Assembly: GCF_016745095.1 (NCBI RefSeq)
Contig: NZ_CP067087.1
Location: 1,244,501-1,308,500 of the forward strand
Length of the DNA stretch: 64,000 nucleotides
Direction: 5' to 3'
From: Croceicoccus sp. YJ47
GTDB lineage: Bacteria; Pseudomonadota; Alphaproteobacteria; Sphingomonadales; Sphingomonadaceae
Made by a program: the position numbers and the translations under genes. Within the stretch, counting starts at the first letter, position 1. Each line of letters begins with the position of its first letter. The notes beneath the pieces were generated by a model. It searched no databases, was not told where the DNA came from, and saw only the letters and a list, made by a program, of their open reading frames with translations. Below are positions 47,035 through 63,274 of the stretch, one piece after another.

Positions 47035-47493
47035 ATGAACAATGCATTATGCGAAATGCCTCGCGTCGAATTCCCCTTCTTCGCATTCCTGCATGACCGG
47101 AGCGTGTTTGGCGCACAAAGCAAGGCGGGCGGATCCGGTGCTTCTGGCGGCGCAGCCACGGCTGCCGGGGCATGGGAGGTCGAGTTCGGCGGGATCGATG
47201 CGCGGATCGGCGCCACGCGCCATGGCGGCGATTTCGCCATTCCGGACAACATGGCAGGGCCCGCCGGAAAGGATGAGACGCGGTCATCGCGGACGGTTCC
47301 CTTCCCCCCCGAATATCGCGCCCTGATCCATCCGCCGCGTGACCGCCGGCGCCTCGGTCCCGGCACGCGCGTCGCTTGCGAACAGCGATCGAGCGCGACG
47401 GTCGTCCGCTATTCTATCGAACATTTCGGCCGCGCTGCGCAGGTCACGACCGTCCGGGCCGGCACGATCGGGGCAATGGAGGCGGCGTCGTGA
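47035..47493 (+). CDS. Hypothetical protein heading the 47-52 kb operon
   Basis: A 152-residue protein I do not recognise. The ATG at 47035 has GGGAG at a good distance. The middle is Gly/Ala-rich (about residues 32-46) and the end (ATVVRYSIEHFGRAAQV) looks beta-rich. No signal peptide or membrane helix is apparent. Its stop overlaps the next gene's GTG by 4 nt, which together with the ribosome site argues that it is real. It could be a small subunit or carrier domain of an enzyme in the operon. Confidence 0.6.
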   Translation: MNNALCEMPRVEFPFFAFLHDRSVFGAQSKAGGSGASGGAATAAGAWEVEFGGIDARIGATRHGGDFAIPDNMAGPAGKDETRSSRTVPFPPEYRALIHPPRDRRRLGPGTRVACEQRSSATVVRYSIEHFGRAAQVTTVRAGTIGAMEAAS

Positions 47494-47969
47494 CGGATTT
47501 CCCGGACCGGATGGCCGCCCCGGCCGCAAACGATCCTGAAATCGCGGTGCTGCGCGAAAAGCTGGAGGAATATCGAACGCAGTACAATCTGAAGGCCGGA
47601 GAGCGGGAACGCACCGATGTCGAGCATCTCTACAAGCGGGATCCGGAATTTACGGCCTATGACGTCGCGCCCCCGCTCGAAGGCTACAAGGGTTGGGACC
47701 GCTATGCGATCGCGTGGTCACAGGTTCTGTCCAAATATTCGGAAATCCGCTTCGAATTCATCGATGAGCCGCGCATTTTCCGCAAGGGTGACGTGGCATG
47801 GATGTCGGTCGCGACAAACTGGTATGGCAAGTCGCGCGCCGGCGACGATTTTGCCAAGCAGTTCCGCCTCACCCTGATCTGGGTCCGCGACGACGATACG
47901 TGGCGGATCACGCATGAGCACGGCTCTGCCACACGTCAGTATCAGCTTTCGGGCGGAGAAACCGTGTGA
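47490..47969 (+). CDS. SnoaL/NTF2-like protein
   Basis: A 159-residue protein with a leading helix (REKLEEYRTQYNLKAGERE) followed by a SnoaL_3/DUF4440-type cone fold: ...WSQVLSKYSEIRFEF, GDVAWMSVATNWYGKS, RLTLIWVRDDDTWRITHEH. Members are lyases, isomerases or ligand-binding proteins. It overlaps both neighbours by 4 nt (GTGA junctions), placing it firmly in the operon. ATG 47511 is a possible alternative start. Confidence 0.8.
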   Translation: MTDFPDRMAAPAANDPEIAVLREKLEEYRTQYNLKAGERERTDVEHLYKRDPEFTAYDVAPPLEGYKGWDRYAIAWSQVLSKYSEIRFEFIDEPRIFRKGDVAWMSVATNWYGKSRAGDDFAKQFRLTLIWVRDDDTWRITHEHGSATRQYQLSGGETV

Positions 47970-48823
47970 GCACGCCTCCCCCTGTCTGGTTCGTGACCGG
48001 AGCATCGGCGGGCCTTGGCCGCGCGCTCGTTTCCGAGATTGCCAGGCGCGGCGACATGGCGATCGCCGCCGCACGCAATACCGATGATGTGGGCGATCTT
48101 GTCGATCTTGCGCCAGAACGGGTCCTGCCGGTCCGCTGCGACGTTACAGACGAGGCAGAGATCGCGCATGCGGTCAGGGATGCGGAAGAGCGGTTCGGTA
48201 GGATCGACGTATTGGTGAACAATGCGGGTTATGGCCTTCTCTCGACCCTGGAGGAAGCGGGCAGCGACCAGATCGAACGGCAGTTCGCGGTCAATCTGTT
48301 CGGGCCCATTCGCCTCATGCGCGCGATATTGCCCGGCATGCGCCGCCGTGGCCGCGGAACGATCGTAAATATCTCGTCGTCGGCAGGCTCGCGGGGCATC
48401 CCCGGATCGGGGTATTATTGCGCCAGCAAGGCCGCGCTCGAAGCACTGGGCGAAGCGCTGGCAGGCGAAACGGAAAATCTTGGCATCCGCAGCATGCTGG
48501 TAACGCCCGGACCGTTGAGAACAGACTTCATGGGCCGTTCGATCGACCAGCCATCGCAGCGTATGGCAGCATATGAACCCATCGCCGAGCAGCGCCGGGC
48601 GCATCTTGCGACCGACAAGATGCAGGCCGGCGATACGGCAAGGGCGGCCGCGCTGATTATCGAAACCGTGCTGTCCCCCGATCCGCCCATGCGCCTGCCG
48701 CTGGGGAGCATGGCCTGCGCCAGTATCTCGAACGCCTATCGTACCAAGCTGGCAGATATCGCGAGGAGCGAAAGCGTTGCCCCCAAGGCTGATTTCGCCG
48801 GCAGGAAGGAGGACGCCGAATGA
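47966..48823 (+). CDS. Short-chain dehydrogenase/reductase
   Basis: A 285-residue SDR with FVTGASAGLG, NNAGYG, ISSSAGSRG and the catalytic GYYCASKAAL. The C-terminal extension (PIAEQRRAHLATDKMQAGD) resembles the retinol-dehydrogenase-like or 'YPxSRxxA' SDRs acting on hydrophobic alcohols. GTG start and 4-nt overlaps with both neighbours show coupled translation. Confidence 0.92.
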   Translation: MSTPPPVWFVTGASAGLGRALVSEIARRGDMAIAAARNTDDVGDLVDLAPERVLPVRCDVTDEAEIAHAVRDAEERFGRIDVLVNNAGYGLLSTLEEAGSDQIERQFAVNLFGPIRLMRAILPGMRRRGRGTIVNISSSAGSRGIPGSGYYCASKAALEALGEALAGETENLGIRSMLVTPGPLRTDFMGRSIDQPSQRMAAYEPIAEQRRAHLATDKMQAGDTARAAALIIETVLSPDPPMRLPLGSMACASISNAYRTKLADIARSESVAPKADFAGRKEDAE

Positions 48824-49785
48824 CCACCCTGCATGACGACCTGCCCCATCCGGTGCCCGGCTATGCGCATCTTCGGTACAAGGAGAACTATTTCTTCATT
48901 CTCATGGCCCCTCGAAGCGACGCGTTTGGCGTGTTTCACCTCAACCATGAACCGGGGCATGACCGGGCGCGGTATACGGGCAATTTCCGCATTGGCGGGC
49001 GCAGCATCGACTATGGCAATCGGACCGGCTTCCCCGCCGATTTCGTCCATGCCCGCCGGATCGGCGACGGTCGCCTGTCGCTGGCCTTCGTGCGGCCGCA
49101 CCAATCGTTCGACCTCACGCTGGAAACCGGCGACATATCGCTCGATCTGCGGTTCGAGGCGCGGTTCGCGACGTTCGATTATGCCGCATGCCAGACCGCG
49201 GGAAACCCGGCGCCTTCGTTTCAGGAAACGATGACCCTGGGTCTCAATCTGCCTTACAATCATCAGCAACAGGCGCTCACGGCCAAGGGCAGCGCCCGCT
49301 TTGCAGATGGCACGACGATCCTGATCGACGGCATGGGTTACCGGGACCATAGCTGGGTCATGCGCGCGGATGTCGCAACGCGGGAACATGACTGGTGCGG
49401 TTTCAATTTTCCCTCTCGCGCATTCGGCATCAAGACCCTCGAAACGATGATGCGCTCCGGCATTCGGGCCAAGGAGGGCTATGTCGCCGATGCCGAAGGA
49501 TTGCGAGCGCTGCGCCGCATCGAGACGACGCGCACCGGCCGCCAGTCTGATGGGCTGTGCGAAACGCTGATCCATGAGGTCGAGGATGTCTTCGGACAGC
49601 GCTATCGCATCGAAAGCGATGTTGCGGGCCGGTTCGCCCATGTTCCGCTCGCTTCGGAGGAGCCTTCCGGCGCGTCCGGCTATCATATCGTCGAGAATTT
49701 CTGCCCCGCGACATGCGCGGGGGAAACGGGCGTCGGACTTGTCGAGATTGGTCGCAATTCCGCCATTGCGGAACCCTTCACGTGA
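48820..49785 (+). CDS. CrtC/lipocalin-like 'RDHSW' protein (DUF7064/7065-like)
   Basis: A 321-residue beta-rich protein carrying GMGYRDHSWVMR (about residues 169-180), the hallmark of a family distantly like carotenoid hydratase CrtC (AttH/CrtC double-calycin fold). No function is established for this branch; binding or hydration of a hydrophobic polyene or terpenoid ligand is a reasonable guess. It overlaps the SDR before it and the phosphotransferase after it by 4 nt each. A second family member lies at 62.1-63.3 kb, again next to phosphotransferases. Confidence 0.7.
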   Translation: MTTLHDDLPHPVPGYAHLRYKENYFFILMAPRSDAFGVFHLNHEPGHDRARYTGNFRIGGRSIDYGNRTGFPADFVHARRIGDGRLSLAFVRPHQSFDLTLETGDISLDLRFEARFATFDYAACQTAGNPAPSFQETMTLGLNLPYNHQQQALTAKGSARFADGTTILIDGMGYRDHSWVMRADVATREHDWCGFNFPSRAFGIKTLETMMRSGIRAKEGYVADAEGLRALRRIETTRTGRQSDGLCETLIHEVEDVFGQRYRIESDVAGRFAHVPLASEEPSGASGYHIVENFCPATCAGETGVGLVEIGRNSAIAEPFT

Positions 49786-50981: not shown

Positions 50982-50983
50982 TC

Positions 50984-52114
50984 ATGATCGAACCATTTCG
51001 CTTCGAAGCGCCGCAAGCCGCTCTCGACGACTTGCACGAACGGCTCGACCGCGCGCGCTGGCCGGAAAGGGAAACGGTCGATGACTGGTCTCAGGGCGTT
51101 CCGCTCGACGCGATGAAGGCGCTGGTGGAGCACTGGCGGCACCGCTACGACTGGCGCGCCTGCGAAGCGAAGATCAATGCCCTCCCCAATTTCACGAGCG
51201 AAATCGACGGGCTTCCCATCCATTTCATCCATGTACGATCTGCGCATCAGGACGCCCTGCCTATCATCCTGACCCATGGCTGGCCGGGATCGATACTGGA
51301 ATTTCTGGACGTTATCGATCCGCTGACCAATCCCGAGAAGCACGGCGGCAGCGCGCAGGACGCCTTTCACGTCGTGATCCCGTCGCTTCCCGGCTATGGA
51401 TTTTCGGGCAAGCCTGCCGACACGGGTTGGGGCGTGGAAAGGATCGCCAACGCCTGGGCCATCCTGATGCAGCGGCTCGGCTATGGCCGTTATGTTGCGC
51501 AAGGTGGCGACTGGGGCTCTGCGGTGACGCGGATGATGGCCGCGCAACGACCCGAAGGGCTCGAGGCGATTCACCTCAACATGGTCATCGTGTTTCCCAA
51601 TGCCGGCGAGGACAATTCGGACGCCGAGGCACAAGAGGCAATCGCGGTTGCGAATGCGCACAAGCGGTGGGGCCTCGGCTACTCGACACAGCAGTCAACA
51701 AGGCCGCAGACCCTCGCCTATGCTCTAGCCGACTCGCCGATCGGGCAGGCGGCATGGATTTACGAGAAACTGCAGGCATGGACCGACAACGACGGCAGGG
51801 CGGAAGATGCGCTGCCTGCCGAGGCGATCCTGGATCTCATCACGCTTTATTGGCTTACGAACACGGGCGGCTCTTCGGCGCGCCTCTACTGGGAAAGCTT
51901 CAGCACCGCCTTCGGCGATTCGCCGATCGAACTCCCGGTCGCATGCTCGATCTTTCCTGCAGAGATGCGGCGCCCTCCGCGCCGGTGGGCCGAGCGGGTG
52001 TTTTCAAACATCATCCACTGGAACAGGCTGGAAAAGGGGGGCCATTTCGCCGCGTTCGAACAGCCCTCGCTTTTCGTGAGCGAATTGCGCAACGCGTTTC
52101 GCAAGATCCGGTAA
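50984..52114 (+). CDS. Epoxide hydrolase (EHN-type alpha/beta hydrolase)
   Basis: A 376-residue enzyme that opens an epoxide to a diol. It has an N-terminal EHN domain (FRFEAPQAALDDLHERLDRARWP), the oxyanion motif HGWPGS, the nucleophile Asp176 in GGDWGS and His354 in KGGHFAAFEQP; an acid residue probably lies in SIFPAEMRRPP. Family members resemble microsomal and juvenile-hormone epoxide hydrolases. It follows the phosphotransferase gene after 2 nt as the last gene of the operon. No monooxygenase is encoded here to make the epoxide. Confidence 0.93.
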   Translation: MIEPFRFEAPQAALDDLHERLDRARWPERETVDDWSQGVPLDAMKALVEHWRHRYDWRACEAKINALPNFTSEIDGLPIHFIHVRSAHQDALPIILTHGWPGSILEFLDVIDPLTNPEKHGGSAQDAFHVVIPSLPGYGFSGKPADTGWGVERIANAWAILMQRLGYGRYVAQGGDWGSAVTRMMAAQRPEGLEAIHLNMVIVFPNAGEDNSDAEAQEAIAVANAHKRWGLGYSTQQSTRPQTLAYALADSPIGQAAWIYEKLQAWTDNDGRAEDALPAEAILDLITLYWLTNTGGSSARLYWESFSTAFGDSPIELPVACSIFPAEMRRPPRRWAERVFSNIIHWNRLEKGGHFAAFEQPSLFVSELRNAFRKIR

Positions 52115-52127
52115 TTCGCGCCGGCGA

Positions 52128-52155
52128 GCTCAGATGACGGCGTGCTCAGATGACG
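52128..52155. repeat. Short direct repeat at the caiB-type gene end
   Basis: GCTCAGATGACG occurs at 52128-52139 and 52144-52155. The second copy contains the stop codon of the CoA-transferase gene, so its last codons are duplicated just downstream, between two convergent genes. Probably a small slippage duplication. Confidence 0.6.
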
Positions 52156-53327
52156 CCGCTCTCCTTTGCATCGGCGATTTCCTGGTCCGACATGCCAGCC
52201 TCGCGCAACACATCGAGGTTGTTTTCACCGGGGCGCGGCGGCCCTTTGCGAATGGAACTGGGCGTAGCGCTAAAGCCGATCGGAGATTTCACGTAAGGCG
52301 CCGGTTGCGACAGCCCCACATCGACATCCTGATAGAACACAGCATTGAAATGCGGATCCTCGAGCGCTTCCTGCGGAGTGAGCAACGGGCCCGAAGGGAT
52401 CCGGTTTTCCTCCAGGATCTGCATGATGTCGGCATTCGTATATTGCTTCGACCATGCGGTGACGACCCGGCTCAATTCCGCGCCGTTTTCGGCACGCAGC
52501 TCGTCATTGGCGAAGCGCGGATCGCCGATCAGATCCTCCCGCCCGATCATGGTCATGAAGCGGCGAAACATCGGCTCGCCAAGCGCGACCATGTAGACCC
52601 ACCCGTCCTTCGTCTGGATCAGGTCCGCCGGTCCGCCCGATTGGGCCCGGTTCCCGGTGCCGGCGCGCTCGCTCTTGTTAAGCGCTTGATCGAACAGGAA
52701 ATAATTGCCCACGGTCAGAGCCGTCTGCATCAGGTTCGTTTCGACAAGCTGTCCTTCGCCCGTCAGATCCCGATGGCGCAGGGCGGCCACGATTCCCAGC
52801 GCCATGAGAAAGCCGGTCGACATGTCCACCCATGCCGAATTCTGTTTCATGGGGCGCCCCTCGTCGCCCGAAATGGCGACCAGGCCGCTCATCACCTGCG
52901 CGATCGCGTCAAAGCCGAGCCTGTCGGCATAGGGTCCGGTCGAGCCGAATGTCGTGAGATGGCCGACAATGATGTCCGGCTTCACGCTCCTGAGCCGGTC
53001 GTAGTCGAGGCCAAGCGCTCTGGTCGGCCGGCGCGGCATATTGACGACCACGACATCTGCGGACGCCAGCAGCCGATCGAATATGGCGCGTCCCTGCGGC
53101 TTGGCGAGATCGATGGTCACTCCGCGCTTGTTGCGGGCCAATTGCGTAAAGCCGACTCCGCCGTGAAATCCCTCATCAATCGGCAATGTCGTGCGATCTT
53201 CGGCCCCGCCCGGCTGTTCGACCCGGATGACATCGGCGCCCATGTCGGACAGCAGCGCCGTGGAAATCGGACCCGATACAAAGCGTGTGACGTCGAGGAT
53301 ACGAACACCTTCCAGCGCACCGGTCAT
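52146..53327 (-). CDS. CaiB/BaiF family CoA transferase
   Basis: A 393-residue class III CoA transferase that moves CoA between carboxylic acids. It starts LEGVRILDVTRFVSGPIS and has DMGADVIRVEQPGG, RNKRGVTIDLAKPQGR and VKPDIIVGHLTTFGSTGPY. The catalytic Asp of the family normally lies in a GQxVDxS motif; here it reads GQLVETNL, with Glu instead. It may still work as some homologues do, but this is unusual. ATG 53327 gives the proper N-terminus. It is 1 nt downstream of the crotonase gene, in an operon of three minus-strand genes. Confidence 0.92.
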   Translation of the reverse strand: MTGALEGVRILDVTRFVSGPISTALLSDMGADVIRVEQPGGAEDRTTLPIDEGFHGGVGFTQLARNKRGVTIDLAKPQGRAIFDRLLASADVVVVNMPRRPTRALGLDYDRLRSVKPDIIVGHLTTFGSTGPYADRLGFDAIAQVMSGLVAISGDEGRPMKQNSAWVDMSTGFLMALGIVAALRHRDLTGEGQLVETNLMQTALTVGNYFLFDQALNKSERAGTGNRAQSGGPADLIQTKDGWVYMVALGEPMFRRFMTMIGREDLIGDPRFANDELRAENGAELSRVVTAWSKQYTNADIMQILEENRIPSGPLLTPQEALEDPHFNAVFYQDVDVGLSQPAPYVKSPIGFSATPSSIRKGPPRPGENNLDVLREAGMSDQEIADAKESGVI

Positions 53328-53328
53328 C

Positions 53329-54132
53329 TCAGCGTCCCCCGAACGCTGGCTTGCGCTTTTCGATGAATGATCGGATCCCCTCCTCGAAATCCTGCGTGAC
53401 GGAACACGCCGCGAAGCTTTCCGCCTCAAGCTCCATCTGCGCGGCTTGCGAGCGGGAGAGCGCGCCGTTCAGCAAAAGCTTGGTCGCCCCGATTGCGGCG
53501 GTCGGCCCATTGGCAAGGCGCCTGACGAGCCGTTCGGTCTCGGTATCGACATCCGCTTCGGCGACCACCCGATTGACCAGCCCTGCCGCAAGCGCCTCGC
53601 TGGCCGACATCCGGTCACCAAGAATGCACATTTCCTTGGCCCGGCGCAGACCGACCATGCGCGGCAGATGCCAGGTAACGGCCCCGTCGGGGCTCGTGCC
53701 CAGCGCTATGTGCGCGACGATGAAGATCGAGGTGTCGGCGGCAATCACGAAATCGCTCGCGGCGACCCAGCCGACGCTGGCGCCCGCGACGGCCCCGCGC
53801 ACCTTGGCGACGACGGGTTTGGGCATGCGTTCGAGCAATGTGAAGATCGGCATGGCGCTGCGGGCGCGCCGTTCGAAGTCGGGCGCGCGTTCAACAGGCG
53901 GAGCATCGATCGCACCGGCAAAGCCTTTGACGTCTCCGCCAGCCATGAAGTGATCGCCCGCGCCGGTCATGACGATGCAACGCACATCGTCGCGCCGTTC
54001 GCATTCGGCCAGGAATGACTGAATGCCAACGACCATATCGGGGCTCAACGCATTGCGAACCTCGGGCCGGTTGAAGGTCAGTGTCGCCACGCCATCGGCG
54101 ATGTCTGTGAGCAGTTCTGCGTTGTCGGTCAT
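53329..54132 (-). CDS. Crotonase of the enoyl-CoA isomerase type
   Basis: A 267-residue crotonase. The oxyanion motifs are HFMAGGDVKGF and RGAVAGASVGWVAASD. At the first catalytic position the usual Glu is missing; instead GTSPDGAVTWHLPR carries an Asp, as in PaaG-type delta3-delta2 enoyl-CoA isomerases. It is therefore more likely an isomerase than a hydratase. ATG 54132 (MTDNAELL) is chosen on the conserved N-terminus. The gene lies between a CoA transferase and another crotonase. Confidence 0.9.
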   Translation of the reverse strand: MTDNAELLTDIADGVATLTFNRPEVRNALSPDMVVGIQSFLAECERRDDVRCIVMTGAGDHFMAGGDVKGFAGAIDAPPVERAPDFERRARSAMPIFTLLERMPKPVVAKVRGAVAGASVGWVAASDFVIAADTSIFIVAHIALGTSPDGAVTWHLPRMVGLRRAKEMCILGDRMSASEALAAGLVNRVVAEADVDTETERLVRRLANGPTAAIGATKLLLNGALSRSQAAQMELEAESFAACSVTQDFEEGIRSFIEKRKPAFGGR

Positions 54133-54165
54133 ATCAATTCCAAAAGCTGTCCTTGCCGCGGGCAT

Positions 54166-54957
54166 TCATCTGTTCTTGTAGTTTCCGGCGCGCTTTTCCC
54201 TGATCGCGGCGAGCGCTTCCTTCAGATCCTCGCTGGTCATCGCGTATTGTTCGAGAGCCATCGCGAACTCGAAATTGTCGATCACCGAACGCTGCATCGA
54301 ATGGTTGAGTGCGCGCTTGGTATATTGCACGGCGATGGGCGGCAGGGCCGCAACCTTGGCCGCAAGCGCCATGGCCGCCGGAAGAACGTCGTCCGGCTCC
54401 TCGACGAGATCGCTCACCGCGCCAAGCCGATGCGCCTCGTCCGCCCCTATCGGATCGCCGGTCAGCAGGTGACGCTTCGATTTCAGAAAGCCGAAGGCCG
54501 CGGGCCAGACATGCGTGCCGCCATCACCCGCGACGAGTCCGACCTTCACATGGGGATCGCCGATGCGGACATTGCGCGATGCCACGATCATGTCCGCGCT
54601 AAGCGCGATCGACGTGCCCAGCCCGTAGACATCCCCCTGAAGCGCCGCGATGACCGGCACGGCGATTTCCGCCATGCCCTGAATCGCCCGGCGGCCATTG
54701 TCATAGGCCTCCATGCGCGCATCGTAGTCGTTGATGAGCCGCTCGATCTCGTCGAAATTGCCGCCGGCCTAAAAGCACTTGCCCGTCGACGCAAGGACCA
54801 GAGCGCGGACATTGCCGGGCCTGCGCAGGCTCTCGATGACCGAAACGACCTCTCCGGTCGTTATCTCGTCCATCGAATTCAGGATTTCGGGACGATTGAA
54901 CGTCAGCACCGCAACATGACCATCCGTCGCATAGGTGATGTTCTTGAATTCGGTCAC
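54166..54957 (-). pseudogene. Crotonase interrupted by an in-frame TAG
   Basis: A crotonase reading from GTG 54957 (GAGGGG upstream) to 54166, 264 codons. The frame is intact except for TAG at 54769-54771, just where the oxyanion-hole motif would read GKCF-(S)-AGGNFDE. A single C-to-A change from TCG would create it. The downstream part is well conserved (ALQGDVYGLGTSIALSAD, LVAGDGGTHVWP). Either a sequencing error, a recent nonsense mutation, or (less likely) read-through. Without the stop it would be a standard 263-residue enzyme. Confidence 0.85.
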
Positions 54958-55064
54958 CGTGTTCCCCTCGCCCCGTTCATCTATTTTGATTGCTGGCATA
55001 CGATAATGTTGCGAACATATTTTTCAATCCGTAATGTGCGCCGGCAAAAAGAAAAGGAGAGGTC

Positions 55065-55826
55065 ATGGCGAAGCGTTTCAGCGGGCGGACGGCGCTCATC
55101 GTGGGCGGAAGCAGCGGGATCGGGCTCACAACGGCGAAAAAATTCGCGGACGAAGGCGCGCAGGTGATGATCGCTGCCCGCCGCGAAGAAGAATTGCGCG
55201 AAGCTGTCGAGGATATCAAGGCGGTGGGTGGAATCGCCGACTTTGTCATCACCGATGTCACCGATGCCGCGTCCGTAGAGGCCATGGTCGCCCGCACGGT
55301 CGAACGATTCGGGGCATTGCACGTCGCGTATAACAACGCCGGGATTACCGGCACCGTGAATCTCTCGGTTGAGGATGCGCAGCTGTCCATGTTCGAGCAG
55401 GTGATGGCCATCAACGTCACGGGGACATGGCTCTGCATGAAATATGAAATTCCCGCCATTTCGAAAGCCGGGGGCGGCGCGATCGTGAATTGCGGGTCGG
55501 TCGCCAGCCTTCGTGGCAGCCCTGGATGCAGCGCCTATTACGGATCGAAGCACGCGGTTGCGGGAATGACCAAATGCGTGGCGCTGGAGAATGCGGCACG
55601 AGGCATTCGCGTCAATGCCGTCTGCCCGGGGCTGGTCATGACCGATCTTGTCGAGAAGGGCTTTGCCGACGCACCGGACAAGCTGGAAATGCTGACGGGA
55701 AAGATACCGATGCAACGCCCCGGTCGGCAGGACGAGATCGCCGATGCGGTCTTATGGCTGGCATCCGAAGACAGCAGCTTCGTGAACGGAGCGATGCTTC
55801 CCGTCGATGGCGCGTCGTCGGTCTGA
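55065..55826 (+). CDS. Short-chain dehydrogenase/reductase
   Basis: A 253-residue classical SDR of the cyclohexanol / 3-oxoacyl reductase type: VGGSSGIGLTTA, YNNAGITG, NCGSVASLRG, catalytic SAYYGSKHAV, and the end GAMLPVDGA. GGAGAG precedes the ATG. It is divergent from the interrupted crotonase and 25 nt upstream of the 55852 gene. Confidence 0.93.
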   Translation: MAKRFSGRTALIVGGSSGIGLTTAKKFADEGAQVMIAARREEELREAVEDIKAVGGIADFVITDVTDAASVEAMVARTVERFGALHVAYNNAGITGTVNLSVEDAQLSMFEQVMAINVTGTWLCMKYEIPAISKAGGGAIVNCGSVASLRGSPGCSAYYGSKHAVAGMTKCVALENAARGIRVNAVCPGLVMTDLVEKGFADAPDKLEMLTGKIPMQRPGRQDEIADAVLWLASEDSSFVNGAMLPVDGASSV

Positions 55827-55851
55827 TCAAACCAATATGAAAAGGCAGATT

Positions 55852-56592
55852 ATGGACAAGATCTACGGCTTCATACGCATGGACATCGGCCCCGGCCAGA
55901 CCGCCGCCTTTCTGGAAGGAGCGAAAGCCTGCTACGATGCGGCGACCCCCGATCTGACCGGAACCCGGCTTTACGAATGGACCCTCTCGGAAGACGGACG
56001 GGAATGCTGGGTGATCGAGGTTTACGACGATGCCGAAGCGCTGGCTCACCATGGGCGAATGCTGCAAGGCAAATCGGCATTGCTGCGCGAATATGCGGAA
56101 ATCACCGTCAATTTCGCCGGTTCCATTCCCGCCCCCGTCGTCGAGGCCATGCGGCAGAAGCTGGGCACGGTCAATGTCTTCGGTCCGCGGGCAGCCGGCC
56201 TTTTGACAGAGGCGACACCCCATCGCCAGGTCGATGACAGCGGCGACAGGATCATGGCGCTGGCATGGTTCACGCCGCATCCCGGCAAGGAGCAGCAAAT
56301 GCATGATCTTGCCATGAAAAGCTTCGGGAAGGTCAAGGAGTCCGATCCCGGCACGATGGCCTATGAGTGGTTTTTCGACGAAGCGGGCCGTGCGCTCGCG
56401 CTCGACGTGTATCGCGACCCTGCGGCCATGATCGCGCATATGCAGAACTGCGGACCGATCATGGGCGAGATACTGAAAATCAGCGACTCCAGAACCCATG
56501 TCTTTGGTCGTCTGCCCGACAGCATCGCGCAGAAAATGCGGCCCGAACTGGGCATCACCTATTTCCCGAAAAGACTGTTCGGCGTGTTCTGA
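55852..56592 (+). CDS. Tandem ABM-like dimeric alpha/beta-barrel protein
   Basis: A 246-residue protein with two similar ferredoxin-like halves. Residues 1-100 (KIYGFIRMDIGPGQTAAFLE, then LYEWTLSEDGRECWVIEVYDD) and 125-225 (ALAWFTPHPGKEQQM, then YEWFFDEAGRALALDVYRD) each match the antibiotic-biosynthesis-monooxygenase / stress-responsive barrel pattern. Such proteins include cofactor-free oxygenases and isomerases. The function here is unknown. ATG 55837 is an alternative start. It probably forms a transcript with the SDR before it. Confidence 0.75.
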   Translation: MDKIYGFIRMDIGPGQTAAFLEGAKACYDAATPDLTGTRLYEWTLSEDGRECWVIEVYDDAEALAHHGRMLQGKSALLREYAEITVNFAGSIPAPVVEAMRQKLGTVNVFGPRAAGLLTEATPHRQVDDSGDRIMALAWFTPHPGKEQQMHDLAMKSFGKVKESDPGTMAYEWFFDEAGRALALDVYRDPAAMIAHMQNCGPIMGEILKISDSRTHVFGRLPDSIAQKMRPELGITYFPKRLFGVF

Positions 56593-56597
56593 CGATA

Positions 56598-58130
56598 TTA
56601 CTCCGGGGCGGCGTGCCGGCCTGCACCCGCCCGCTCGACGAGCCATTCGCGCTTCAGGTGCCGGACATAGATCTTGCCGGTATCGTGACGTGGCAGCGTT
56701 TCCCGGAATTCATAGCTGCGTGGAAGTTTGATCGATGCAAGCCTGCTCCTGCACCAGCGTCGCAGATCCGCCTCCAGCTCTTCGCGGTTTGCCGTCTGGT
56801 CGAGCGGCTGGATCGCGGCATGCAACACTTCGCCCATGTCATCATCGGGCACCCCAAACACACAGGCATCGGCCACGCCGTCATGCAGCATCAGCGCATT
56901 CTCCGCCTCTTGCGGATAGACGTTGACGCCGCCGGAAATCACCATGTTCTTCAATCGTCCGGTCAGATAGAGATAGCCATCCTTGTCCAGATAGCCGACA
57001 TCCTCAATCGTGCTGCGACCCGTCGTGTCGAAAGCCTCTCGCGTACGATCCGGCTGCCCATGATATTCGAATTCCGGCCCGCCCGAGAACCATACCGTAC
57101 CAATTTCGCCCGCCGGCAATTCGCGCCCCGCATCGTCCAGAATGTGGATCGATCCCAGAAATGGCCTCCCGACCGAACCGGGGTGGTTCAGCCATTCGTG
57201 CGAGCTGATGAGCGTGAGGCCATTGCCCTCGGTGCCCCCATAGCTTTCCTCGAGGATGGGTCCGAAATACTCGATGGCCTGCCGCTTGATATCCGGGGCG
57301 ATCGGTGCCGCGCCATGCACGATACCGCGCAGGCTGGACAGATCGAAACCATCGCGCACGGCCTTGGGCAGTTTCATGATCCGGACCAGCATCGTCGGCA
57401 CCCAATGCGCCCAGTTGATCCGCTCTTTCTCGACCAGGCGAAGCGCCTCGACCGCATCGAATTTTTCCATAATGACGATACGCGCGCCAATATGCTGCAT
57501 CGCCATCGTGAAGCGCATCGGCCCTGAATGATAGATGGGGCATGGCATGAGATAGACGGTTTCTTCGTTCCAGTCATAACGATCGGCATAGACCGCAAAC
57601 ATTTTCGACAGGCCGTCGATCGAACTATCCGGCAGGATTTGCTTTATACCCTTGGGCATGCCGGTGGAGCCGGATGAGTAAAGCATGTCCGACCCCCGGC
57701 TTTCATCGCCGATCGGATTTGCCGGGAGGTCATCGCAATAGGTCTGGTCGGTGACATCGACAAAACGGATGGCAAGTCGGCCCTTTATCTGCGCGACGAT
57801 TTCGCGTTGCTGTGCCGTGTAAAAAAGGATCCGCGCGCCGCTGTTCTTCAAGATGTGGATGATCTCATCGCTACGAAAGCGCCAGGAGATCGCCGTGTAA
57901 TACAGGCCCGCATTATGTGCCGCCCAACAGATTTCATGAAAAACCGGCGTGTTTTCGATCAGCAACGCGATATTGTCGCCCCGCTCCAGCCCCTGGGCAC
58001 GCATGAAATGGGCCGCCTTATTGGCGCGCTCGTCCAAGGTGCGATAGCTGATATTGACGTCCAGCGAAGGATAGGAGATCGCAATGCGATCCGGTTGTTC
58101 CAACGCCCAGCGTCGTGGATGTTGCTGCAT
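56598..58130 (-). CDS. Acyl-CoA synthetase (AMP-forming)
   Basis: A 510-residue adenylate-forming ligase: MLYSSGSTGMPKGI loop, ESYGGTEGNGL, GYLYLTGRLKNMVISGGVNVYP hinge, and C-terminal HDTGKIYVRHLK with the catalytic lysine. ATG 58130 (MQQHPRRW) is preferred since AGAGG is 8 nt upstream; ATG 58136 is too close to it. It is the second CoA ligase in the region and may activate a later intermediate or an alternative acid. It is divergent from the Rieske ferredoxin gene. Confidence 0.93.
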   Translation of the reverse strand: MQQHPRRWALEQPDRIAISYPSLDVNISYRTLDERANKAAHFMRAQGLERGDNIALLIENTPVFHEICWAAHNAGLYYTAISWRFRSDEIIHILKNSGARILFYTAQQREIVAQIKGRLAIRFVDVTDQTYCDDLPANPIGDESRGSDMLYSSGSTGMPKGIKQILPDSSIDGLSKMFAVYADRYDWNEETVYLMPCPIYHSGPMRFTMAMQHIGARIVIMEKFDAVEALRLVEKERINWAHWVPTMLVRIMKLPKAVRDGFDLSSLRGIVHGAAPIAPDIKRQAIEYFGPILEESYGGTEGNGLTLISSHEWLNHPGSVGRPFLGSIHILDDAGRELPAGEIGTVWFSGGPEFEYHGQPDRTREAFDTTGRSTIEDVGYLDKDGYLYLTGRLKNMVISGGVNVYPQEAENALMLHDGVADACVFGVPDDDMGEVLHAAIQPLDQTANREELEADLRRWCRSRLASIKLPRSYEFRETLPRHDTGKIYVRHLKREWLVERAGAGRHAAPE

Positions 58131-58205
58131 GGACATCACCTCTGGATTGTGGCAGTTGCATCGATTACCGTACGGATGCTTATTAGGTGCAAAGGAAATG
58201 ATTTG

Positions 58206-58520
58206 ATGGGTTTCGTCAAGGCCTGCAATCTGGACGATCTGGAAGAAGACGAGATTTTGCTCGTTGAGATCGAAGGCCATGAGAAGATGGCATTTTACAT
58301 TGTCGACGGAGAGGTGTTCGCAACATCGGATACGTGCACCCATGGTGAGGCGAGCCTGTCCGAGGACGGTTATATCGACGAAGGTGTCGTCGTATGCAGC
58401 TGGCACGACGGGGCGTTCGACATACGTTCGGGCGAAGCCTGCCGGCATCCCTGCTTCGAGCCTATCAAGACCTACAAGACCGAGATACGCGGTGACGAGG
58501 TTTTCGTCGAAGTCGAATGA
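58206..58520 (+). CDS. Rieske-type [2Fe-2S] ferredoxin
   Basis: A 104-residue soluble ferredoxin. Cluster ligands are Cys44 and His46 (CTHGEASL) and Cys64 and His67 (CSWHDGAFD), the standard CxH...CxxH set. It resembles ferredoxin components (BphF / CarAc type) of Rieske ring-hydroxylating oxygenases. No terminal oxygenase or ferredoxin reductase is in the window, so the partner must be elsewhere. AAGGAA lies about 10 nt before the ATG. Confidence 0.93.
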   Translation: MGFVKACNLDDLEEDEILLVEIEGHEKMAFYIVDGEVFATSDTCTHGEASLSEDGYIDEGVVVCSWHDGAFDIRSGEACRHPCFEPIKTYKTEIRGDEVFVEVE

Positions 58521-58553
58521 CGCGCCCCACCCGGATCCGCGGTTTCTGGCGCC

Positions 58554-59333
58554 TTAGCCCTTGCGGGTCATGAAGGCGGTCACGCGCTCTGCATAGTCCG
58601 GGTGGGAAACCACCGCGCCGATATCGATGGTTTCCTGCGCAAGGTGGTCCTGCACCGAAATGCGATGGGCGATATTCATGGCCCGCTTGGTCCTGCCGAG
58701 CGCTTCCTGAGGTGTCGCGGCCAGTCGCTGCACGATCTCCTCGGTCACCTGATCAAGCTCTTCCTCGGGCACGACGCGGTTGATCAGGCCGATGTCTCTG
58801 GCCGTGGCGGCATCGAAGATATCGCCGAGATAGCAGATTTCCTTGGCGCGCTTGGGGCCGACATTGCGCACGAGATTATAGCTGAGCGCCGAGTCGGGAA
58901 TGACGCCGATGCGGATCTGTGCCGCAAGGAAGCGCGCATTGTCGGCCGCGATGGCAAGGTCGCTGGCCGACACGATCGCAAGACCGCCGCCTGCCGCCAT
59001 ACCGCGCACCCTGGCGACCACCGGCTGCGGAATACGCTCCATGATGGCGAACATCTGATTGCCCTTGTCCCCGCTGGTCATCCAGTGGTTCGCGCGCTCG
59101 ACGTCGTCCATGCCCAGCGTCTGCGAAAACTCCTTCACATCTCCGCCAGCGCAGAAATTGTCGCCCGCACCGCTAATCTGAACCACCCGGACGGTACGGT
59201 CGAATTCGATGCTGCGCAGCATATCGCCGATGCTTTCCCACATGCCATTCTTCATCGCATTCATCGCATGGGGACGATTGATGGTGATGCGAACGACCGG
59301 CCCGTCTTTTTCGAAAATCAGCGCATCGCTCAT
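58554..59333 (-). CDS. Crotonase of the enoyl-CoA isomerase type
   Basis: A 259-residue crotonase with NFCAGGDVKEF and RGMAAGGGLAIVSASD. At the catalytic positions it has RIGVIPDSALSYNLVR, with Asp rather than Glu, resembling PaaG-like isomerases and the 53.3-kb paralogue, plus RAKEICYLGD. It overlaps the phosphotransferase gene upstream by 4 nt and is the last gene of the 58.6-63.3 kb operon. Confidence 0.9.
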   Translation of the reverse strand: MSDALIFEKDGPVVRITINRPHAMNAMKNGMWESIGDMLRSIEFDRTVRVVQISGAGDNFCAGGDVKEFSQTLGMDDVERANHWMTSGDKGNQMFAIMERIPQPVVARVRGMAAGGGLAIVSASDLAIAADNARFLAAQIRIGVIPDSALSYNLVRNVGPKRAKEICYLGDIFDAATARDIGLINRVVPEEELDQVTEEIVQRLAATPQEALGRTKRAMNIAHRISVQDHLAQETIDIGAVVSHPDYAERVTAFMTRKG

Positions 59334-60550
59334 TTCGTCATCTCCCTCGCAAGATCACTGGCCAACGCTCGCAATTGTCGCGGCATGGTATTATGGCCGA
59401 TCGCCGCGACCCGCAGATCGCGATCCTTGCCGCGATCGAACGTGCCGCGCGCCATGCCGGTCCAGACAGAAAGCGTCAGCGTCCGCCATACGGTGAAGAA
59501 CGCCATGCGCCGATCCGAAATATGCGGGCCGCCCGCATCGTAATACGCCTGCATGAATTCGTCCCAAGGCAGGATTTTTTCGATGAGAAAACGACAATAG
59601 GCGAGGTCCTCGGCAGGATCGCCGGCATGGACGAATTCCCAGTCGAGCAAAGCGGTCAGACGATCCCCCTCACCCATCGTATTATGCAGCGCGGCATCGC
59701 CGTGGACGAGCTGGCGGTGAATGCCCAGATGAGGCAGCTCCGCGTGTAGCCACGCGAATGCCGCATCGATGAGCGGTGTGGGGACGACGCCGTCGCGATA
59801 TTCCTTTTCGCGCTTGGCCAACAGGCCGGCGACCGGATTTTCGACAGACCCGAATTCGATCTTATCGCAAAGCCCCAACCCATCGATGTCGAAATTGTGC
59901 ATCCGGGCGAGCGTTGCGGCGAAATCCTTGCAGAATTCCGGACTCGCATCGCTGGCGAACAGCGTGCCCATCGCCTTACCGGGAACCCGCTCGAACACGA
60001 TGAACCGGCCGCCGATGACATTGGCGGAGGTTTCGATTGCCAGGGGCCGCGGCACCTTCAGCCCGGCCTTATGAACAGCGGCAATCGCATGATATTCATC
60101 GACGACCGAGGTTCCGGTCACAGCCGAGCTGAAATCAAGCCGAACGACCAGGTCCTGGCCATTGTCGAGATCGAGCAGCAGCGTCCCCTTCGAACGGCCG
60201 CCCGGTACGATGCTCACTTTTGAGACCGTGCCGGAAATTCCATGATCGGCAAGCCAGCGGGTGAAGGTCTCGGGAGGTACCGAAAGTTCCTTGGCCGATC
60301 CCCTCGTTTCCACAGGCGCCGCAAGGACAGCGAGTATCTCGTCCTCGATCGCATTGCGGGTCAGGGCTTCTGCCTCGACATCGCCTTGCACGACAGGATC
60401 GGCATCCGCTTCGACCGACAGGCGGGCCAGCAGCATTTCGATCAGCTCACAGCGCAGCTGCGCGTTGGGGCTGGTCAGTTCCGGCTTGAGATCGGCGCGC
60501 ACCGCATCGAAGATGGATCGCAATTTTGCGCCAAGGAGGGGATCATTCAC
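59330..60550 (-). CDS. APH-fold phosphotransferase with N-terminal helical domain
   Basis: A 406-residue protein. Residues 1-85 are a helical domain (LRSIFDAVRADLKPELTSPN, then ELIEMLLARLS) similar in pattern to the separate 60.5-kb protein. The kinase fold follows with the full catalytic loop VHGDAALHNTM (His283, Asp285, Asn290) and the metal site LLDWEFVHAGDPAED. It is likely an active kinase for a small hydroxylated metabolite, as for LvaA or ACAD10/11-type kinases acting on hydroxyacyl-CoA. It overlaps the genes on both sides by 4 nt. Confidence 0.87.
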   Translation of the reverse strand: MNDPLLGAKLRSIFDAVRADLKPELTSPNAQLRCELIEMLLARLSVEADADPVVQGDVEAEALTRNAIEDEILAVLAAPVETRGSAKELSVPPETFTRWLADHGISGTVSKVSIVPGGRSKGTLLLDLDNGQDLVVRLDFSSAVTGTSVVDEYHAIAAVHKAGLKVPRPLAIETSANVIGGRFIVFERVPGKAMGTLFASDASPEFCKDFAATLARMHNFDIDGLGLCDKIEFGSVENPVAGLLAKREKEYRDGVVPTPLIDAAFAWLHAELPHLGIHRQLVHGDAALHNTMGEGDRLTALLDWEFVHAGDPAEDLAYCRFLIEKILPWDEFMQAYYDAGGPHISDRRMAFFTVWRTLTLSVWTGMARGTFDRGKDRDLRVAAIGHNTMPRQLRALASDLAREMTK

Positions 60551-61020
60551 ACGGGCCTCCCGACGAAGACCGGGAAGAAGAAGGCGCTTTCCCGCTCGGC
60601 GTGACGCCGCAGGTAGGCCTTCAGATCGTTGAGCACCTGCATCAGCCGTTCGTTCCCCTCGGCACCCTGCGCATTTTCCAGAAGCACACCGACCGCTTCC
60701 CGCCCGGTATGGTTGATGGCCTGCAGGCGTTCGACGCTGGCGTAGCCCCGCAGCACGTCGGGCGCGTCCGACAGGAACGTATCCAGCGCCGGGATGGCCG
60801 CCTCCGTTGCGTTTTTCGCGGCCTGAAGAATCGGGAGGAGGTCCGCGCTATCCTCGTGCAGCATCGGGCCTTCGACCGGAACGCGCGCCTGCAGGTGATT
60901 GAGCAAGGCATCCACGCTGCGCAGCGCGCTCGATGCCCATTTATCAGTCAGTTGCGGCTCCACATGCTCCTTTAAGGCGAGCTGCATCGAGGCAATGACC
61001 TCTCGGGTTGTCGGCATCAT
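60547..61020 (-). CDS. Small helical LvaB-like protein
   Basis: A 157-residue, all-helical soluble protein (TREVIASMQLALKEHVEP, then ALRSVDALLNHLQARV; ending ERESAFFFPVFVGRP). It lies between two APH-fold phosphotransferase genes, overlapping one by 4 nt and 14 nt from the other. In the levulinate pathway of Pseudomonas putida a small protein, LvaB, is encoded next to the kinase LvaA and is needed for its activity; this protein has matching size and context. Assignment rests on context and pattern, not a search. Start ATG 61020 or 61017. Confidence 0.65.
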   Translation of the reverse strand: MMPTTREVIASMQLALKEHVEPQLTDKWASSALRSVDALLNHLQARVPVEGPMLHEDSADLLPILQAAKNATEAAIPALDTFLSDAPDVLRGYASVERLQAINHTGREAVGVLLENAQGAEGNERLMQVLNDLKAYLRRHAERESAFFFPVFVGRPV

Positions 61021-61034
61021 GGTGAACACTCCGT

Positions 61035-62093
61035 TCAGTTTGCAGCGCTTTCGGGGCGGTATGGGCTCTTGCGCCATTGCTCGACGATCCGTGCCGCCTC
61101 TTCGATCGGCTTTCCGATCATCATGCCGAGCAATTGTTCGAACAATTTCACCCGGCTAAAGCCAAGCGTGAGGCGTGGCACCCGAGGATTTTCACCTGAC
61201 AAAAAGGGCCGCAAGCCATTGTTCAGCGTGGGCACCGCTTTCCAGACTTCCCACACCCGGTAGAAATCAAGGCTCGACCGGTCGATTTCGAAACCTGCAG
61301 CATCTTCGTAATGACGCAGCGTCGCATCGGCATCGCCGAGCGTCAGCATGCCCTGACTCAGTGCCCAGTCCTGTGCCGGATCGCCGGCAAAGGCGAGCTC
61401 CCAGTCCGAAAGCGCGACGATCCTGTCATCCTTCCAGATCTCCTCGCCCATGCCATTATTGCCTTTGCACAATGACACGCGCGGGGCTTGGGTGGGGAGA
61501 TGCTCCTCCAGCCAGTGCGCCGCCTCCACGAGCAGCGGAAACGGATCGGTGCGCACTTCGCGAAAAATCCGGTTCCAGCGATTGAAGTCGGTACGCGCGC
61601 AGGCGCTTGGCGAAGGCGGCACGTCGACAAAATCGGCAAAGCCGTTCGCCTCGAGGTCCAGCCTGTGCAACGCGGCCAGCTTTTCGGCATGCTCGAATGC
61701 GACACGCTGACGGCGCGCGGCCGCCTTTTCGCCGTCATCATAGAGGCCAGGCAATTCGTTGCTGCCTTCTGTGAGCCGGCGGACCATCACGGGACGTCCC
61801 TGCGTGATGTCTGGTGCGGCATCAAACCACAGCGGTTCGGCCACCGGAACATCCGTACCGAACAGCCCTTTCATGATGCGGTATTCATATTCCAACGGCA
61901 CCGGGCAGATTGGACCGCCAAGTGCGTCGGTACGGAAGACATATCCCCCCTCGCCCCCGCTTTCGCGCGTCCACACGAGGAACGTCTCGCGCGAAATGCC
62001 CGGAAACGTCCGGACGAACCGGTCCACTTCCACGTTGGCGCCGAGATGGGCGGAAAGATAATCCTGTAAGGGGCCCTTTTCGATCACATCCAT
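61035..62093 (-). CDS. APH-fold phosphotransferase-like protein with altered catalytic loop
   Basis: A 352-residue protein of the APH/ACAD10-like fold without the N-terminal helical domain. The nucleotide-binding half (FPGISRETFLVW) and the metal-site ALSDWELAFAGDPAQDW are present, but the catalytic HGDxxxxN reads K210-G-N212-NGMG-E217, so both the catalytic Asp and the following Asn are replaced. It could be a pseudokinase, or a subfamily with a different mechanism. It is encoded directly upstream of the small LvaB-like protein and downstream of the CrtC-like gene. Confidence 0.82.
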   Translation of the reverse strand: MDVIEKGPLQDYLSAHLGANVEVDRFVRTFPGISRETFLVWTRESGGEGGYVFRTDALGGPICPVPLEYEYRIMKGLFGTDVPVAEPLWFDAAPDITQGRPVMVRRLTEGSNELPGLYDDGEKAAARRQRVAFEHAEKLAALHRLDLEANGFADFVDVPPSPSACARTDFNRWNRIFREVRTDPFPLLVEAAHWLEEHLPTQAPRVSLCKGNNGMGEEIWKDDRIVALSDWELAFAGDPAQDWALSQGMLTLGDADATLRHYEDAAGFEIDRSSLDFYRVWEVWKAVPTLNNGLRPFLSGENPRVPRLTLGFSRVKLFEQLLGMMIGKPIEEAARIVEQWRKSPYRPESAAN

Positions 62094-62134
62094 TTCCCTG
62101 TTTTATTGTGTCGCCTGCTGGAGGCCGCCCGATC

Positions 62135-63274
62135 TCAATCGGGTAAGTCGAAGCGGGGCTGCGGGCCGATGACGAACATGGGGATGTACGCCGCGCCCCG
62201 TTGTCCATTGATCGTGCAAATCGCCAGTTGTTCGCGATGCTTGGGTCTGGCTGTCGAGCCATCCGGCATGACGACGGCTTCGGGGTCGGAAATATCGTAT
62301 TCGTCGATTTCGATCGCGAGATCACGCGATCGCCAGACCCCCTGCCCCTGCCCATCGGAAAAGCCGCTGTCGAAACCGCCGCCGCGATAGACCCACGGCC
62401 GGCCCACCGCCTGCGCCTCGAGCACCATGCTGCGTCCGTCGGCCAGCCCAAGGGTCAGCGCGATCGTATCGAAAACGCGCGTCCCCGGCTTGAAGCGTAC
62501 GTCGTGCTCCAGCTCGGTCACCTCGACCGGACCCGCGGTGCCTTCGCGGATTTCACCCTCGGTATAGAGCCTGTGGCCTTCTCCGTCCTCGATCAGCTGG
62601 ATTGCGCCGCCAAGATCTCCGGCCCGGAAACCCGCGTGGACAAGGAACAGGCCCTTGCCCCCGGTGCGCGACGCAGAGGCGACTCCACCCGCGCTTGCCG
62701 TACCTGTCATGGGTTCAAAACCACCCACGCCCGGCCGCACGCCCCAACTATGGTCGCGCCAGCCGAACCAGTCCTCCGCCGTGATCGTCTCACCGGCAAC
62801 GGTCAGCGACCCGTCGATCCGGCCAAGCTGGTTATAGCGCAGATAGTTGGTGTGGAGCCGACCATCGCCGCGCGATACATGCGGATGCTCCAGCCGCGGT
62901 TCGAGGACCGCGGCAAAGCGCATGTCGAAGCAGACAGGATATTCGCCGCTTTCCAGAACCCAGCGCAATTGCTTGAAGGGCTGTTCGACCGCCATCGAAA
63001 GCGGCCCGATCCGCGCATCGCTGTCGGGCATGGGACGCAGCTGGCGGGTGAAGCGGACGTTGTACTGACGCGCGCCGCGGTGCTGCACCATGGCGAAACC
63101 TTCGATCACGTTCATGTTCTTGAAGATCGTGATGCCGCAAAGGAACGCGACCTCGCCATCCTTCCGGAACCCACCGATCAATTGCCTGTCATAAAAGCGA
63201 TGGTCGGTGGAATCGACGGAATCGAACGTCAGTGACGCCTGATGGTGCAGGGTTTCATCCAATGGAGTAAGCAC
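62135..63274 (-). CDS. CrtC/lipocalin-like 'RDHSW' protein (DUF7064/7065-like)
   Basis: A 379-residue beta-rich protein with DWFGWRDHSWGVRPG, the family signature shared with the 48.8-kb protein; the two otherwise differ in length and sequence. The fold is probably two lipocalin-like barrels as in AttH/CrtC. Substrate unknown; a hydrophobic ligand is likely. The start is GTG with GGGAGAG upstream. It is the first gene of a five-gene minus-strand operon with two phosphotransferases, the small helical protein and a crotonase. Confidence 0.72.
   Translation of the reverse strand: MLTPLDETLHHQASLTFDSVDSTDHRFYDRQLIGGFRKDGEVAFLCGITIFKNMNVIEGFAMVQHRGARQYNVRFTRQLRPMPDSDARIGPLSMAVEQPFKQLRWVLESGEYPVCFDMRFAAVLEPRLEHPHVSRGDGRLHTNYLRYNQLGRIDGSLTVAGETITAEDWFGWRDHSWGVRPGVGGFEPMTGTASAGGVASASRTGGKGLFLVHAGFRAGDLGGAIQLIEDGEGHRLYTEGEIREGTAGPVEVTELEHDVRFKPGTRVFDTIALTLGLADGRSMVLEAQAVGRPWVYRGGGFDSGFSDGQGQGVWRSRDLAIEIDEYDISDPEAVVMPDGSTARPKHREQLAICTINGQRGAAYIPMFVIGPQPRFDLPD

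Follow-up and report, generated by a model that had tools for sequence, protein, structure and literature searches.

Two operons of Croceicoccus sp. YJ47 predicted to encode ATP-dependent dehydration modules for hindered alcohols

What is the function of two neighbouring operons in which a protein with an RDHSW motif is encoded together with one or two phosphotransferases of the APH fold? The question is raised by a stretch of 64,000 nucleotides from the genome of Croceicoccus sp. YJ47 (contig NZ_CP067087.1, positions 1,244,501 to 1,308,500 of the forward strand), referred to here as the window. A preliminary description had placed the motif in two open reading frames, 48820-49785 (+) and 62135-63274 (-), and had paired these in operons with phosphotransferase frames at 49782, 59330 and 61035; the first two frames are present, with 321 and 379 aa, and the other three all score above the PF01636 cut-off of 23.2 bits. 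Judging from sequence comparisons and structural models, we consider it likely that operons 1 and 2 are ATP-dependent dehydration modules for hindered alcohols within one catabolic cluster. The observed basis of this reading consists of homology and similarity of fold to 25-hydroxysteroid kinase (25-HSK) and to 25-phosphosteroid lyase (25-PSL), a conserved Asp, recurrent linkage, and correlated divergence of the paired proteins; the reaction, the tertiary alcohol and the isoprenoid substrate are all three assigned by analogy. The genes of operon 1, in order, are:

47487..47969, + strand, SnoaL/NTF2-like protein, first gene (PF13474, 40 bits; start codon uncertain)
47966..48823, + strand, short-chain dehydrogenase (PF00106, 164 bits; 4-nt overlap with both neighbours)
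48820..49785, + strand, lyase1 (P0001), RDHSW protein of family DUF7064 (PF23212, 6.7e-9), 321 aa
49782..50981, + strand, kinase 1 (P0003), APH fold with intact HDDxxxxN and DWE (PF01636, 94 bits)
50984..52114, + strand, epoxide hydrolase, EHN plus alpha/beta hydrolase (PF06441, 141 bits)

Operon 2 reads on the opposite strand, with a divergent MarR gene upstream:

62135..63274, - strand, lyase2 (P0002), RDHSWG protein of the Rv3169 family (NF053593, 262 bits, cut-off 150), 379 aa
61035..62093, - strand, KG kinase (P0005), APH fold with DWE retained (PF01636, 37 bits) and the catalytic loop changed to CKGNNGMGEEIW
60547..61020, - strand, P6 (P0006), small third component without an NCBIfam family or a Pfam family above cut-off
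59330..60550, - strand, kinase 2 (P0004), APH fold with intact HGDxxxxN and DWE (PF01636, 116 bits)
58554..59333, - strand, crotonase, final gene (PF00378, 163 bits)
63475..63996, + strand, MarR regulator (PF12802), conserved beside lyase2 (63-69% identity in loci L108-L114)

Overlaps of 4 nt, which had been ascribed to most of these genes, occur at five junctions, three in operon 1 (SnoaL/short-chain dehydrogenase, short-chain dehydrogenase/lyase1, lyase1/kinase 1) and two in operon 2 (kinase 2/crotonase, kinase 2/P6); lyase2 and the gene at 61035 do not overlap, being 41 nt apart. Operon 2 is also present in Sphingobium sp. Leaf26 and Sphingomonas formosensis.

The RDHSW proteins and 25-phosphosteroid lyase

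The motif reads YRDHSWVMR in lyase1 and WRDHSWGVR in lyase2. With phmmer, lyase2 matches 25-PSL (9fzn, 9g2i, 9g4c) at 2.2e-20 over residues 3-195. The top five Protein Data Bank (PDB) matches of its AlphaFold model (pLDDT 89, from an alignment of 40 sequences) are all 25-PSL (TM 0.81-0.86, rmsd 3.5-3.9, E 3e-27 to 2e-25), and in the comparison with 9g4c (TM 0.82/0.86) the fold is matched over the whole length. Lyase2 also belongs to the Rv3169 family by its score of 261.7 bits on NF053593, a model on which lyase1, at 25.3 bits, stays below the cut-off. As a single query lyase1 found no significant match in the PDB; a profile of ten lyase1 sequences reaches 9fzn at 2.6e-9, and hhalign relates the lyase1 family to the lyase2 family with a probability of 99%. 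By these comparisons lyase2 is a homologue of 25-PSL, and lyase1 is a remote homologue, as recognized by profile.

In the printed alignments 9fzn has Asp in the RDRSWG motif where 9g4c has Asn, and the title of 9g4c describes a complex with phosphate and the alkene product. Because of this D-to-N difference between 9fzn and the product complex, we infer that the Asp of RDxSW was mutated in 25-PSL to trap the complex, and hence that it is probably catalytic. The motif Asp of the RDHSW proteins, Asp174 in lyase2 and Asp176 in lyase1, corresponds to the residue replaced in 9g4c. It is kept in 40/40 sequences of the lyase2 alignment (A2), whose source scan partly selected for RDHSWGV; all 30 loci found by profile (L009-L038) carry RDRSWG, and RD is kept in 10/10 sequences of the lyase1 alignment.

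The preliminary description had suggested that a hydrophobic substrate is first phosphorylated and then loses the phosphate by elimination. This is supported by homology: the closest solved relatives of the two protein types include a matched pair, 25-HSK and 25-PSL. In the scheme that we propose, an oxygenase (a P450 is encoded close to the window) and/or the epoxide hydrolase would introduce into a hydrophobic, isoprenoid-like substrate a hydroxyl group that is hindered and probably tertiary, and a canonical kinase would phosphorylate it. The RDHSW protein, as a two-lobed lipocalin-like lyase, would then eliminate phosphate, leaving an alkene that would be degraded by the dehydrogenases, CoA ligase, acyl-CoA dehydrogenases and crotonases.

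The RDHSW proteins had been called CrtC-like and had been thought to act on or bind the substrate. The label holds at the level of the fold only, since neither P0001 nor P0002 matches the Pfam CrtC family at E 0.01, and by homology the RDHSW protein is predicted to be the lyase itself, not a mere binder. Members of the CrtC superfamily hydrate prenyl groups, and to our knowledge no kinase partner has been described for the CrtC/AttH/kievitone hydratase fold. The RDHSW proteins might be hydratases, isomerases or lipid carriers of this fold, with the kinases serving a separate step such as the trapping of an alcohol as its phosphate. We regard this as improbable. The two-lobed fold is indeed common to AttH, kievitone hydratase and the [4+2] cyclases, and lyase1 is distant from 25-PSL, but 25-PSL is much closer to lyase2 than AttH, the next fold found by its model (E 3e-27 to 2e-25 versus 1.6e-10), and the same-strand linkage to kinases, together with the conserved Asp, points to a joint reaction.

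Recurrence of the lyase-kinase pair

The gene-neighbourhood check that had been proposed for these proteins was run, and the linkage was found to be recurrent. A lyase profile and an APH profile were built from sequences of this analysis, and linkage was defined as an APH domain within 1 kb. We studied 80 loci, the best 80 of 106, which were chosen by lyase sequence alone and include near-duplicates. An APH domain lies at most 1 kb from the lyase domain in 63 of these loci, on the same strand in 61, as counted with an APH profile from which the kinases of the 80 loci were absent. The first kilobase holds 64 of the 82 APH domains within the 80 loci, and later kilobase bins hold at most 6 each. 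By comparison, chance would be expected to place an APH gene within 1 kb of about 1-2% of genes (11 APH matches in the 3.35 Mb of the window's own genome). In the search of the order, the best 30 of 47 places were linked in 30/30 cases with an extended APH profile that included kinases of these loci, and in 26/30 with the first profile, made from own-genome kinases only. In the class, with either profile and with the window's own locus excluded, 23/29 places were linked for lyase2 and 5/6 for lyase1 (24/30 and 6/7 in the raw counts that contain the window's own two loci). Among the 80 loci, L122, L170 and L167 seem to be contigs from genomes G364, G419 and G351, with identical proteins, and several titles of metagenome-assembled genomes (MAGs; Klebsiella, Akkermansia, Kuenenia) look mislabelled, the phylum counts being soft.

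The members of a pair also diverge together: lyase distances and kinase distances correlate with r = 0.94 over the 63 pairs and r = 0.82 over 25 dereplicated pairs, in each case above all 999 shuffles, the species tree not being controlled for. That the APH proteins are antibiotic-resistance kinases present here by chance, as their fold and weak matches to aminoglycoside and macrolide kinases might suggest, is very improbable in view of the recurrent linkage to one lyase family in 63/80 loci. An identity as antibiotic phosphotransferases was rejected separately: in all matches listed, P0003-P0005 score far under the NCBIfam resistance cut-offs (for example 38.8 versus 205 bits for APH(3')).

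Some relatives carry both lyase types. In Granulicoccus phenolivorans (L117) one strand encodes an aldehyde dehydrogenase, a short-chain dehydrogenase, a P450, a lyase2 homologue, a kinase and an epoxide hydrolase, and continues with a zinc alcohol dehydrogenase, a DUF7064 lyase1 homologue, a kinase, a Rieske oxygenase and a CoA-transferase; Arthrobacter hankyongi (L119) has homologues in the Granulicoccus order. Sphingobium sp. 15-1 (L115) holds lyase2, a kinase, an alcohol dehydrogenase homologue and lyase1 inside 5 kb. On a Sphingobium plasmid a kinase gene is followed by an epoxide hydrolase gene (product 57% identical to that of the window) about 5 kb from a lyase1 homologue, and on a Mycobacterium branderi plasmid a kinase and a lyase gene overlap by 4 nt, with genes nearby for an NTF2-like protein, a P450 and an epoxide hydrolase of 53% identity to the window's. 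When its substrate is a trisubstituted epoxide, an epoxide hydrolase makes a tertiary alcohol, and such a product would suit the kinase-lyase pair. An apparently expanded array was also seen in the same bacterial family as the window, where about 12 kb hold the genes of three DUF7064 proteins and of four APH kinases (L093:1159-13358).

The kinases and P6

P0003 and P0004 have HxDxxxxN and DWE intact, the features asked of a partner kinase of the 25-HSK/25-PSL type; in the HGDxxxxN motif of APH kinases the Asp is catalytic and the Asn binds Mg. Compared by sequence with the PDB, kinase 1 matches Rv3168 (3ats) best, and 25-HSK (9fsg, with its substrate, and 9ft5) is among the closest relatives of the window kinases with a solved structure. 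The 61035 protein, P0005, has the APH fold and lacks the canonical catalytic motif: CKGNNGMGEE is aligned to vhgdyrldn of 3dxp. With its model (pLDDT 94), 3dxp ranks first, 25-HSK with substrate ranks 2, 3 and 5, and Rv3168 ranks 4. The pattern KG[NQT]xGxGEE replaces HGDxxxxN in P0005 and 19 relatives (alignment A3), rows that were selected by this pattern, so that the constancy of its letters is by choice. Residues D230, W231, E232, R54 and E70, not used in the selection, are invariant in the 20 KG kinases; R54 and E70 of P0005 we take to be, probably, the ATP-site pair. In a quick tree of 99 kinases a single branch (SH-aLRT 99) separates the 20 KG bearers from all the others, and such a branch is also found after removal of the motif columns together with three flanking columns on either side.

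The KG variant (E up to 1e-60) was found in 3 of 337 alphaproteobacterial genomes, the window's own included, and the same three carry lyase2 relatives of at least 44% identity. Of the 18 KG loci among the 80, ten also have a canonical kinase (L108-L114, L116, L118, L125) and eight, some of them on short contigs, do not (L121-L124, L126-L129). The sequences argue against simple decay of the KG kinase, because the variants form one clade with one rebuilt loop in distant hosts, and a clade of this kind, with a rebuilt active site, looks new.

P6 homologues, detected by iterated profile at low identity, lie within 300 nt of the pair in 55/80 loci. The gene order is kinase-P6-lyase in 38 of these, lyase-kinase-P6 in 16 and lyase-P6-kinase in one, and in many loci P6 occupies a kinase-lyase gap of about 390-515 nt. 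All 20 KG loci examined hold P6, including L089 and L090 (the latter from the same genome as L122). It is missing beside the pair in 8 of the 63 linked loci (L115-L117, L119, L130, L131, L180, L184), with L116 having it elsewhere in the locus; on a Tsukamurella plasmid the kinase and lyase genes overlap directly. P0006 matches no Pfam family above cut-off, and 19 P6 members gave no match to NCBIfam at E 0.05. A P6 protein beside the kinase-lyase pair looks new. Members also show scattered single weak matches to five further families, and their PDB-profile matches are mostly designed or coiled-coil helical proteins. Hemerythrin was considered as an identity for P6 and rejected, as 2/19 members match at E<=0.05 and P0006 scores 21.0 bits against a cut-off of 25.3.

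A broader proposal, possible in our opinion yet doubtful, is that kinase, P6 and RDxSW lyase form a widespread three-protein dehydration machine, found in several bacterial phyla and dehydrating many different alcohols of terpenoid or steroid type, and that the KG clade does something other than ordinary Asp-catalysed phosphoryl transfer. Within this proposal the KG kinase might, for example, hold the phosphoester, use Lys/Glu catalysis, or activate the neighbouring lyase or kinase.

Several observations weigh against the dehydration modules as we propose them. The identity of lyase2 to 25-PSL is about 23% in the structural alignment, lyase1 is tied to 25-PSL by profile only, other chemistry occurs within the same fold (kievitone hydratase, Fsa2 and Phm7, all among the fold matches of the lyase2 model), and 4/10 proteins of the lyase1 alignment diverge after the Asp (two RDHSR, one RDHSY, one RDAGW). 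Next to lyase2 stands the KG kinase, which lacks the canonical catalytic Asp, and therefore operon 2 needs the activity of kinase 2, or else the variant works differently. Seventeen of the 80 loci have no APH domain within 1 kb; some, L120 and L142 among them, are cut by contig ends, and L173-L179, L182 and L185 look like a real kinase-less group (titles Cellvibrionales, Deltaproteobacteria and others). The window's own genome has a second copy of the Rv3169 family (1333784) without an APH domain in 18 kb. Finally, a CoA ligase and acyl-CoA dehydrogenases are also compatible with a CoA-thioester substrate.

This last point bears on a route of the LvaA/ACAD10/ACAD11 type, in which the kinases would phosphorylate a 4-hydroxyacyl-CoA, an acyl-CoA dehydrogenase would eliminate the phosphate, and the RDHSW proteins would be accessory. 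In LvaA/LvaC and ACAD10/11 an APH-type kinase acts ahead of phosphate elimination, a mechanism that is published, as given in the accessible part of PMC11342911; these systems differ from the one proposed here in that the substrate is a CoA thioester and the phosphate is eliminated by an acyl-CoA dehydrogenase. CoA ligase, acyl-CoA dehydrogenase and crotonase genes surround both operons, and ACAD11 (8v3v) is among the PDB matches of all three kinases. We nevertheless consider this route unlikely, and an acyl-CoA dehydrogenase as the eliminator, which had been the earlier model, is not favoured: the kinases of operons 1 and 2 abut RDHSW proteins, P6 or a crotonase and are neither beside nor fused to an acyl-CoA dehydrogenase, while two ACAD10/11-like kinases of the same genome (L002, L003) do adjoin acyl-CoA dehydrogenases and carry DWELSTLGHP like 3dxp. 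For the RDHSW proteins, the homology is to a lyase that eliminates phosphate.

The kinase-less MAG loci L173-L179, L182 and L185 encode RDHSWG lyase homologues, and APH domains, distant and weak, are seen only in L178 and L179; their kinase may be located elsewhere, or the protein may act differently. The second copy in the window's genome (L189:6303-7592, G000:C1 about 1333703-1334992) has the motif RDRSWG and lies near genes for an acyl-CoA dehydrogenase, MaoC and MFS proteins. In L132, from a MAG titled Hopanoidivorans, the lyase2 homologue has no kinase close by, a case that might point to hopanoids as substrates.

Known systems and the catabolic surroundings

The closest known system is that of Sterolibacterium denitrificans, which serves in anaerobic cholesterol degradation, with the same two protein types, the same folds, and an RDxSWG motif (RDRSWG in 25-PSL, RDHSWG in lyase2). 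There 25-HSK phosphorylates the tertiary alcohol at C25 of a 25-hydroxysteroid, and loss of the phosphate, brought about by a lyase, leaves the delta-24 alkene; according to the accessible part of the 2021 paper, the gene for 25-PSL was not known and there was no candidate near the kinase gene (PMC8449060), whereas in the window the kinase and lyase genes are adjacent. The two-step ATP-dependent dehydration chemistry is described in the part seen of a 2020 paper (PMC7411048), and the lyase was still termed putative in the part seen of one from 2024 (PMC11061730). PDB titles released in January 2026 name both 25-HSK and 25-PSL. Neither P6 nor a KG kinase is mentioned for S. denitrificans in the accessible text of PMC8449060 and PMC7411048. 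By analogy, the window modules most likely use 25-HSK/25-PSL chemistry on another isoprenoid-like alcohol, and, given a P450 nearby, the route may be aerobic, unlike that of S. denitrificans.

Rv3168-Rv3169 of Mycobacterium tuberculosis is described as an adjacent operon, with no reaction given, in the accessible part of PMC5340868. Kinase 1 has 3ats as its best match, the Rv3169 family model gives lyase2 262 bits, and from the family names of its parts we predict that the mycobacterial pair is of the same kinase-lyase kind.

The preliminary description spoke of an undescribed system. This overstates the case for the chemistry, since a 2021 paper describes the kinase of S. denitrificans (PMC8449060, in the part seen); within the literature searched it remains a fair word for these clades, the cluster and the substrate. 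The search, whose coverage is thin for subscription journals and preprints and which is weak evidence of absence, returned no report of a 25-PSL gene, nothing on DUF7064/DUF7065, and nothing on an APH-fold pseudokinase or KGNNG. What looks new is the adjacency of the genes, the two lyase types per cluster, the third small protein and the rebuilt kinase loop. If the proposed function is correct, ATP-dependent dehydration of hindered alcohols would be a common catabolic module instead of a curiosity of one cholesterol-degrading denitrifier, recognizable by gene pairs now annotated as 'phosphotransferase family protein' and 'hypothetical protein'. A testable function would follow for DUF7064 and for the Rv3169 family with its mycobacterial operon; P6 would stand as a candidate third component, and a clade of APH-fold proteins whose active site has been rebuilt would have come to light.

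The remaining genes of the surrounding region are:

39995..41095, + strand, zinc alcohol dehydrogenase (homologues inside the Granulicoccus and Arthrobacter clusters)
45750..46886, - strand, acyl-CoA dehydrogenase of the surrounding catabolic region (PF00441, 119 bits)
52146..53429, - strand, class III CoA-transferase (PF02515, 349 bits; start uncertain)
53329..54165, - strand, crotonase (PF00378, 183 bits)
54166..54981, - strand, crotonase frame interrupted by one in-frame stop
55065..55826, + strand, short-chain dehydrogenase, syntenic among relatives (66-77% identity in L108, L110-L114)
55852..56592, + strand, ABM-domain protein, syntenic among relatives (PF03992)
56598..58106, - strand, acyl-CoA ligase (closest NCBIfam FadD4, under cut-off)
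58209..58520, + strand, Rieske ferredoxin (PF00355, 62 bits; start approximate)

Of the CoA-related genes that had been ascribed to the span of the two operons, one CoA ligase and three crotonase frames (one with a stop) are there; the acyl-CoA dehydrogenases are encoded a little beyond it, at 45750-46886 and past the window's right edge. On that side the genome continues with genes for an acyl-CoA dehydrogenase, the P450 (about 2 kb from the edge, at G000:C1 about 1310554-1312098), a tandem CoA-transferase, a further two acyl-CoA dehydrogenases, a thiolase and a TonB receptor. The substrate cannot be read from these neighbours, as the ligase, acyl-CoA dehydrogenases and thiolase all score under NCBIfam cut-offs. 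With PF00384 as the sole probe for a Mo-dependent steroid C25 hydroxylase, 3 matches were found in the genome, none near the cluster, a result that speaks neither for nor against such an enzyme. The interrupted crotonase frame has intact homologues in L108 and L111, with 81-83% identity. A TonB-dependent receptor gene at 38102-39712 (-) of the window adjoins the catabolic region, and its product possibly serves in substrate uptake.

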